DNA of 40,446 nt from a candidate division TA06 bacterium JGI_Cruoil_03_38_101 (GTDB lineage Bacteria; Hydrothermota; UBA3072), in the NCBI GenBank assembly GCA_002215665.1, contig NGFL01000023.1, forward strand, positions 24,329-64,774, given 5' to 3'. The notes below the pieces were generated by a model. It saw only the letters and a program-made list of their open reading frames with translations, was not told the DNA's origin and made no database searches. The position numbers and the translations under genes are program-made. Every line of letters starts with the position of its first letter. Positions within the stretch are counted from its first letter, which is position 1. Shown one piece after another: positions 31,208-33,583 of this stretch.

Positions 31208-32239
31208 ATGAAAAAAATAGGAGTAATTACTGGGGGTGGTGACTCACCAGGAATCAACGCAGCTATTAGAGCCATTGTTAAAAGAGCAAATTTGGATGGG
31301 ATCGATATACTCGGATTTAAAGACGGCTGGGCTGGTTTAATCAAAAACGACTGGCAAGAGTTAGGGTTAAAAGAAGTTTCGGGTGTTCTCCCAAGTGGAG
31401 GAACTTTACTCGGGAGCTCCAGGACTAATCCCTTCAAAACCGAAGAAGGTGTTTCTAAGGTGAAGGAAACTTATAAAAAAAACGGTCTGGATGCATTAAT
31501 CGCTATTGGCGGTGATGATACGTTAGGGGTGGCTCACAAACTGAAAGATTACGGAATAAAAGCTGTGGGGATACCTCAAACGATAGACAATGATCTGGCT
31601 GAAACCGAATTTGCTATAGGTTTTGACTCTGCTTTGGCAAGGGTGACAGAGGCTATAGATGGGCTACATACCACAGCCTATTCCCATCACCGAGTAATGG
31701 TAGTAGAAGTCATGGGTCGTGACTCAGGCTGGATAGGGCTATTTGGAGGTCTTGCAGGTGGTGCAGATATAATCTTAGTTCCTGAAGAACCTTACACAAT
31801 TAAAGAAATAAAGAAAAGGATTGAAGAACGAAGAGCAAAGGGGAAAAATTTTTCAATAGTGGTAATCTCCGAGGGTGCAAAACCAATTGAACTAGATCAA
31901 CAAATAACAAAAGGAACTGAAGCCGATGAATTTGGACATGTAAGGCTGTCTGGAATTGGGCATTATCTTGCGGATCAACTCCGGGAAATCCTGAATATGG
32001 ATGTTAGAGTAACAAGACTTGCTTACCTGCAACGGGGTGGCCAGGCAACACCTTTCGATCGCTTACTGGCAACACGATTTGGGGTACTAGCTGCAGAACT
32101 GTGCATAAACGGAGACTTCGATGAGATGACCGCTCTAAAAGCCAGCAAGGTAGTACCTGTTGAACTTGAAAAAGTGTTATCTAAGTCACCAAAACCCATA
32201 GATAAAAAACTTTTGGATTTGAGAAAAATATTCTACTAA
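31208..32239 (+). CDS. 6-phosphofructokinase family (phosphoryl donor uncertain)
   Basis: GVITGGGDSPGINAAIRAIV, IGGDDTLGVA, PQTIDNDL, VMGRDSGWIGL; SD ggaggatttaaaATG. Confidence 0.93.
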   Translation: MKKIGVITGGGDSPGINAAIRAIVKRANLDGIDILGFKDGWAGLIKNDWQELGLKEVSGVLPSGGTLLGSSRTNPFKTEEGVSKVKETYKKNGLDALIAIGGDDTLGVAHKLKDYGIKAVGIPQTIDNDLAETEFAIGFDSALARVTEAIDGLHTTAYSHHRVMVVEVMGRDSGWIGLFGGLAGGADIILVPEEPYTIKEIKKRIEERRAKGKNFSIVVISEGAKPIELDQQITKGTEADEFGHVRLSGIGHYLADQLREILNMDVRVTRLAYLQRGGQATPFDRLLATRFGVLAAELCINGDFDEMTALKASKVVPVELEKVLSKSPKPIDKKLLDLRKIFY

Positions 32240-32323
32240 TTTCTACCAGGTCAATTGAAATAAGATTCATTCAATAAGTTGAAATTTTAATCTTTGGGAA
32301 TCTAAACTAAAAAGGAGAGAAAA

Positions 32324-33583
32324 ATAAATATCTTTTTTATTGTTATCTCAATTCTTCCTTCTGATTCAACAATATCTCTTGAAAGTAACGAGAAAAATCT
32401 TCCATCAACCTCCATAAATGTCTTTCTGGATTTTGCTTTTGGTGGAAGATATGGATATGTAGATTACATTAAAACAGAAATTCCCTTTATAAATTACGTT
32501 CGTGATCGTAACCAGGCAAATCTCCATATCATATTATCAAGCGAGCATACAGGTGGTGGTGGAAGAAAATATACAATGTTTTTTTATGGTAAAAAGAGCT
32601 TTGAGGGTATGTGTGATACCCTGAGCTATTTTTCAAATGTTACAGATTCTGAAGAGACTATCCGAAGTGAAATTGTAAGAGTCCTAAAAATGGGGTTGGT
32701 TCGTTACATTTCTAAAACCCCTTTATCTAATTATCTTTCAATTTCCTATAAGGAAACTGAAGAGAAAAGCAAAGAAGAATCAGAGAAAATAAAGGATAAA
32801 TGGAATTATTGGGTTTTCAGGATCTCTGGAGACGCTGATTTAGATAAAAAAACTTCCGAAGAGGATTATGACTTTAATTTTGATCTATCCGCGTCTCGAG
32901 TAACAGAAGCATTAAAAATCAATCTTTTCGCCAGATTAGATCGACACTATAATAATTATAAAATTGACAGTGAGGAATATAGCAGTTACAGGAAAGGACA
33001 ATTTATTAAAGGTCTGGTTGTAAAAAGCCTGGGGAACCATTTTTCTGCCGGAATTTACGGAACTGTCATTTCCCAAACTTATGGTAATATTAAGGTTTCT
33101 TACGGTGTTGCTCCTGCTGTTGAATACAATATCTTTCCGTATTCAGAATCCATCAGAAGAGAACTTACCTTTTTATACAGAATTGGAGGCGGTAAAACTT
33201 CTTACTTCGAGAAAACAATCTTTGATAAAACTGAAGAACAATTATACCAGCAAGCTCTTGAGATTGACTATGGCATTAAGGAACAATGGGGTTCTATAGA
33301 TTTTAGGTTAGATGCAGCGAATTATCTACATGATTTCAATAAATATCACTTGACCTTTCATGGGGGATTATCTTTACGTTTATTTGAAGGGTTTTCTCTT
33401 TATGGGTATGGATCCGCGAGTGCAATTCATGATCAATTATCATTAGTAAAAGGTGGCCGAACAATAGATGAAATCTTGCTACAAAAGAAACAACTCGCAA
33501 CTGACTACGATTTCTCATTCAGGATAGGGATTAGCTATTCCTTTGGATCTATTTATAGCAACGTTGTTAACTCTCGTTTCTAA
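32324..33583 (+). CDS. Exported beta-barrel-like protein; apparent ATA start at 32324
   Basis: Open frame continues upstream of the track start (32576): [ATA]NIFFIVISILPSDSTISLESNEKNLPSTSINVFLDFAFGGRYGYVDYIKTEIPFINYVRDRNQANLHIILSSEHTGGGGRKYT|MFFYG...; SD GGAG at 32314-32317; no ATG/GTG/TTG in frame between TAA (32303) and 32576. Confidence 0.75.
   Translation: MNIFFIVISILPSDSTISLESNEKNLPSTSINVFLDFAFGGRYGYVDYIKTEIPFINYVRDRNQANLHIILSSEHTGGGGRKYTMFFYGKKSFEGMCDTLSYFSNVTDSEETIRSEIVRVLKMGLVRYISKTPLSNYLSISYKETEEKSKEESEKIKDKWNYWVFRISGDADLDKKTSEEDYDFNFDLSASRVTEALKINLFARLDRHYNNYKIDSEEYSSYRKGQFIKGLVVKSLGNHFSAGIYGTVISQTYGNIKVSYGVAPAVEYNIFPYSESIRRELTFLYRIGGGKTSYFEKTIFDKTEEQLYQQALEIDYGIKEQWGSIDFRLDAANYLHDFNKYHLTFHGGLSLRLFEGFSLYGYGSASAIHDQLSLVKGGRTIDEILLQKKQLATDYDFSFRIGISYSFGSIYSNVVNSRF

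Follow-up and report, generated by a model that had tools for sequence, protein, structure and literature searches.

AUA as a probable start codon of a predicted outer-membrane-type gene and of further genes in a candidate division TA06 bacterium

The closest described systems are the infC genes, which start with AUU in E. coli and with AUC in Streptomyces and whose product IF3 is autoregulatory (PMC5472188, PMC13009471). Non-canonical starts are repressed by IF3, and for Streptomyces sigR, which starts with GTC, this repression was shown by experiment (PMC5472188). In S. aureus, AUA is the start codon of infC, ccpN and citZ, and cvfC1 starts with AUU; AUA reporters of ccpN and citZ reached about 10-30% of the AUG yield (PMC13009471). 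A reconstruction of 61,358 ancestral AUG starts, which rests on annotated starts, counted 0 switches to AUA and 1 to AUU (PMC5622118). Single AUA starts are already known; what would be new in the genome described here is their frequency and their presence in essential genes, and a literature search, largely outside subscription journals, found no report of a lineage with many AUA starts.

The window, the whole stretch of 40,446 nucleotides that was analysed, carries a gene that resembles the infC systems in having an AUN codon behind a strong Shine-Dalgarno (SD) sequence and no canonical start, and the genome's own infC also has ATA at this position. It differs from them in that AUA would here serve an outer-membrane-type gene and, infC apart, seven or more others. 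The likeness to S. aureus ccpN and citZ lies in AUA combined with an extended SD, ccpN being conserved from S. aureus to B. subtilis (PMC13009471). Four non-canonical sites in all were reported for S. aureus (PMC13009471); the approximately nine ATA and few ATT starts of the present genome were read from sequence, and the ATA genes found in 72% of its 1.6 Mb include essential tRNA synthetases, unlike the S. aureus set. With Streptomyces sigR the genes share a non-canonical start outside infC and a proposed low, IF3-responsive expression; the codon differs (GTC in sigR), and IF3 repression is experimental there whereas it is proposed by analogy for the AUA set.

The window gene is located on contig C5 of a draft genome (1.62 Mb, 73 contigs, 95% complete). 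Its 5' neighbours encode a class II aldolase and a phosphofructokinase, the latter gene ending at 32239, co-directional with the window gene and separated from it by about 85 nt. Standard ORF callers take an internal ATG (32576..32578, plus strand, codon 85), giving a called ORF of 32576-33583, whereas the frame is open from an in-frame TAA (32303..32305), its upstream limit, to the stop TAA at 33583. The sequence-only reading had given the codons from this limit onward as TAA ACT AAA AAG GAG AGA AAA ATA AAT ATC TTT TTT ATT GTT, and the same codons were found over 32303-32350, with ATA AAT ATC following the SD region from 32324. GGAG (32314-32317), which it had placed 6 nt ahead of ATA 32324, indeed lies there and is part of a longer SD, AAAGGAG (32311..32317), that pairs with the tail of the genome's own 16S rRNA (...CACCTCCTTTCT). 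Inspection of the frame also bore out the claim that no ATG, GTG or TTG is usable upstream of the called start, as none of the three occurs between 32303 and 32576. With the proposed start codon ATA (32324..32326), read as fMet and separated from the SD by 6 nt, the full CDS would comprise 419 codons and the stop (32324..33583, plus strand) and encode a predicted outer-membrane-type protein. It would begin with a short hydrophobic, signal-like segment (NIFFIVISILPSDST, 32327..32371), a putative signal peptide of atypical form without Lys or Arg at its front, as in the homologs L002 and L003. When the 117 nt behind the stop were shuffled with dinucleotide composition preserved, only 11 of 20,000 sequences contained an ATA in frame at 4-8 nt after AAGGAG.

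The window protein is carried by 22 of the 147 genomes of the phylum, its own genome counted, and also by an Aminicenantes MAG (L014). Alignment of the homologs, which have an overall identity of 43-46%, reaches the region upstream of 32576 and covers codons 33-84 with the common block VFLDF...YVDYIKTEIPFINYVRDRNQANLHIILSSEHTGGGGRKYT; the pattern shared in this region is V[FY][LI]D...YIKTEI.F[IV]NYVR...A..HI..T..TG.GG..YT. These residues constitute a conserved N-terminal domain (32420..32575) with predicted strands at residues 49-54, 65-75 and 81-91, which would be lost if translation started at 32576, and the frame is thus protein-like back toward TAA 32303, as had been claimed. A canonical start, nearly always ATG, is available in 21 of the 22 homologs with an intact N-terminus; it precedes the conserved block by about 10-52 residues, compared with 32 residues for the window ATA. 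The homologs start behind an SD at the place corresponding to the window ATA, so that the alignment, which the sequence-only reading had suggested as a means of fixing the N-terminus, places it at about 32324. The nearest homologs are approximately 45% identical, start with ATG and are too distant to show conservation of the ATA. One distant homolog (L007/L019) has no ATG, GTG or TTG at its start; its start region reads GGAGGATCAA CTG AAA, and GGAGG ATCAA CTG points to a possible CTG start. In another genome (G059, L006/L034) the homolog is split over two frames with its middle missing and is probably a broken copy, and in the Aminicenantes MAG the protein occurs as two tandem paralogs (L014:2947-5619).

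Searches with the window protein gave no sequence match in Pfam, NCBIfam or PDB. An AlphaFold run on a three-row alignment (mean pLDDT 58.5) predicted an N-terminal alpha/beta domain, the first strands of which precede residue 85, followed by long antiparallel beta strands in a barrel-like arrangement (residues 162-408, 32807..33547). The best PDB matches obtained with Foldseek were outer-membrane barrels (porins, e.g., OmpG) with an E value of 4e-6 but a TM-score of only 0.23. The earlier designation of the protein as outer-membrane-like therefore gained from the predicted strands and the barrel-type fold matches but was weakened by the low confidence of the model, and we regard it as plausible.

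The genome was scanned with a codon model trained on it, and ORFs with coding signal upstream of the first canonical codon were sought in 1.164 Mb (72% of the genome, 1029 genes). A strong SD was defined as AGGAG or GGAGG, with the in-frame codon 4-6 nt behind it; such codons were ATG in 231, GTG in 26 and TTG in 24 cases over the 1.164 Mb. In the set of genes in which 8 or more coding-like codons preceded the first canonical codon, ATA occupied 9 of 26 positions against a background of 3.4% (P = 1.2e-7, a value that assumes independent positions and comes from a selected gene set, so that the comparative evidence weighs more). The next commonest non-canonical codons in this set were AGA and ATT with 3 each, and none exceeded 3. 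The ATA count is a minimum, since the scan misses genes that have an in-frame canonical codon close by. Of the nine genes, six were confirmed by family models: tyrS, glyQ, clpB, infC, ftcD and an isopropylmalate-dehydrogenase relative. The other three are the window gene, an rsmB-like gene and a lipoprotein gene (putative lipobox IKNLLLIFSTTVLIIAGC), the last two of which were assigned by our own reading of the sequence. An ATT (or ATC) start is likely for genes encoding the TatD nuclease, an inositol-monophosphatase relative and an alcohol dehydrogenase. Applied as a control to E. coli K-12 (400 kb), the scan flagged infC only (ATT, the known case). For G018, from another family of the phylum, 400 kb yielded a single ATA gene, TatD; the 400 kb scanned of G002, from the same family as the genome itself, yielded two clear ones, with tyrS among them. 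The best explanation of these data is that AUA serves this genome as a minor fourth start codon, in about nine genes within 72% of the assembly. A short Lys/Arg-rich ORF on contig C15 (33441-33728, minus strand, L319) combines a strong coding signal with the lack of a canonical start; there, ACG comes after AGGAGGTAAAT.

The start regions of these genes were compared with those of relatives. The single-copy tyrS (G000:C1:53828-55015, plus strand, L042:13828-15015) reads AGGAGG AAAGAA ATA at its start and has no ATG, GTG or TTG for 182 codons. ATA behind an SD, with no canonical codon near the start, was found for tyrS in the genome itself (G000) and in G001, G002, G004 and G005, i.e., in five species of four genera of the family with independent assemblies; in G003 and in relatives farther away, the codon is ATG. 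The 5' flank of tyrS (L155, L156, L157, L158) contains family-conserved DNA of the type GAAACTCAC(C/T)CC(A/T)CTTCTTAATAT, for which no Rfam match was obtained and which may be a leader or the end of a peptide; a T-box or another known RNA element ahead of tyrS was rejected, the search having found a tRNA gene only. The glyQ gene (L186:18691-19530, minus strand) is likewise single copy without a canonical start. Its start codon is ATA in G000, G003 and G005, ATC in G006, GTC in G007, ATG in G002 and GTG in G009, so that the codon varies within one class and its place stays constant (also L252, L254, L259, L260); in G005 there is an additional upstream ATG, without SD. In ftcD the ATA of the genome takes exactly the position of the ATG of G001-G005 and G008. 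For clpB, ATG was found in G001, G002, G003 and G009 and TTG in G005; for the isopropylmalate-dehydrogenase relative, ATG was found in G001, G003 and G004. In clpB, ftcD, glyQ and the isopropylmalate-dehydrogenase relative, the ATA is in exact register with the ATG of relatives. The infC gene of the genome reads AAAGGAGG TAAGCT ATA GCA, and ATA or ATT occupies the infC start across the class, in all nine nearest relatives examined (ATT in G002 and G005). An in-frame TGA in infC of several families was considered as recoding and rejected, as this TGA is the genuine 3'-terminal stop codon. The TatD nuclease gene has ATT in the genome (L277), ATG in G001 and most relatives and ATA in the distant G018 (L280). 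In rpsE (L197:12700-13260, minus strand; L306-L312), an ATT behind AGAAGGAGG is conserved in six genomes of the family, and in G000 and G004 no canonical start precedes the conserved S5 domain; this ATT was not counted as a proven start because its 'SD' AGAAGGAGG also codes for the end of rplR (EGG).

The components of the initiation machinery were inspected in the genome. Among the tRNAs read there are three with a CAU anticodon, one of which is a standard initiator with the GGG/CCC anticodon stem and the acceptor-end C-A mismatch, and none with UAU; a special initiator tRNA was rejected, the initiator being ordinary. The 16S rRNA residues G926, A790, G1338 and A1339 and the anti-SD are likewise ordinary. 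Altered decoding or grip residues, among which G1338A loosens start selection (PMC11497404), were rejected, as G1338 and A1339 are normal. IF3 of the genome keeps Y75, R116, R131, R147 and R168, and Arg99 is replaced by Tyr at a position that is variable elsewhere in the phylum. Most of the fidelity residues of E. coli IF3 are thus kept, and a loss of such residues as the cause was rejected, no relaxed-fidelity lesion being evident. With an ordinary tRNA, an ordinary 16S rRNA and mostly kept IF3 residues, the likely route is therefore fMet-tRNA(CAU) acting on AUA. The 7-base Shine-Dalgarno helix would place the initiator tRNA on AUA 32324, and fMet-tRNA(CAU) would read the codon despite the third-position mismatch, with rescue by the strong SD; non-Watson-Crick pairs are tolerated at the third base only (PMC10158994). 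By analogy with infC and Streptomyces sigR, initiation at AUA is probably weak, of low yield and sensitive to the IF3 level, giving a protein with an N-terminal fMet. IF3, which would damp AUA starts, would itself be made from an AUA start.

In summary of the locus, AUA 32324 is very probably the start codon, used with fMet through the ordinary initiator tRNA and the SD as one case of a habit of the lineage. Initiation at this codon, as the sequence-only reading had proposed, is supported by the position of the homologs' N-terminus and by at least eight further genes of the genome that also show AUA starts. Points against it are the ATG starts and low similarity of the nearest homologs, the atypical signal-like segment and the kept IF3 residues. 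That the ATA instead stems from faulty assembly or base calling, or from a start codon lost recently, the gene being ATG-started or a fresh pseudogene, would fit a draft in 73 contigs and a family whose relatives use ATG, but it is unlikely: the remainder of the 419-codon frame is intact, eight other genes have ATA at the start position, where random errors would not concentrate, and the ATA of tyrS is common to independent assemblies of four genera. The ATG-to-ATA replacements fall at the start codon behind an SD and therefore do not form a sequencing-error pattern.

Slightly less probable still is a start at another non-canonical codon of the leader, e.g., ATC 32330 or ATT 32339. The clade does use ATT in infC of G002 and G005 and ATC in glyQ of G006; however, these two codons sit 12 and 21 nt behind the SD, beyond normal spacing, whereas ATA lies at 6 nt, and the codon enriched in the genome is ATA. 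Initiation in another frame, or coupling to the upstream phosphofructokinase gene followed by a frameshift, is highly improbable despite the shared direction and short gap of the two genes, since the upstream gene ends at 32239, the in-frame TAA 32303 is followed by a self-contained SD and ATA, and sequence inspection found no SD-backed ATG, GTG or TTG in the other frames near 32324. The called ATG 32576 is the least credible start of all. It is the first canonical codon, but its use would delete the signal-like segment and the domain conserved in homologs with an intact N-terminus, and it is not the start because these homologs share residues encoded at 32420-32575.

Tentatively, and with a little less than even confidence, we suggest that AUA is a regular fourth start codon throughout the family, accounting for about 3% of strong-SD starts and long kept in tyrS and glyQ, and that the set responds to IF3 and is tied to an IF3 that is itself AUA-started. 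Since the reconstruction of ancestral starts found no switch from AUG to AUA (PMC5622118), several such replacements within a single genome would not have been expected. Common gene callers accept ATG, GTG and TTG only, so that genes with AUA starts are truncated or lost; the window gene is shortened by 84 residues in standard calls, the signal-like segment included, and an annotation might list tyrS or glyQ as defective. The genome offers a natural system for studying bacterial tolerance of weak start codons in essential genes, and for asking whether the IF3 level regulates genes beyond infC.
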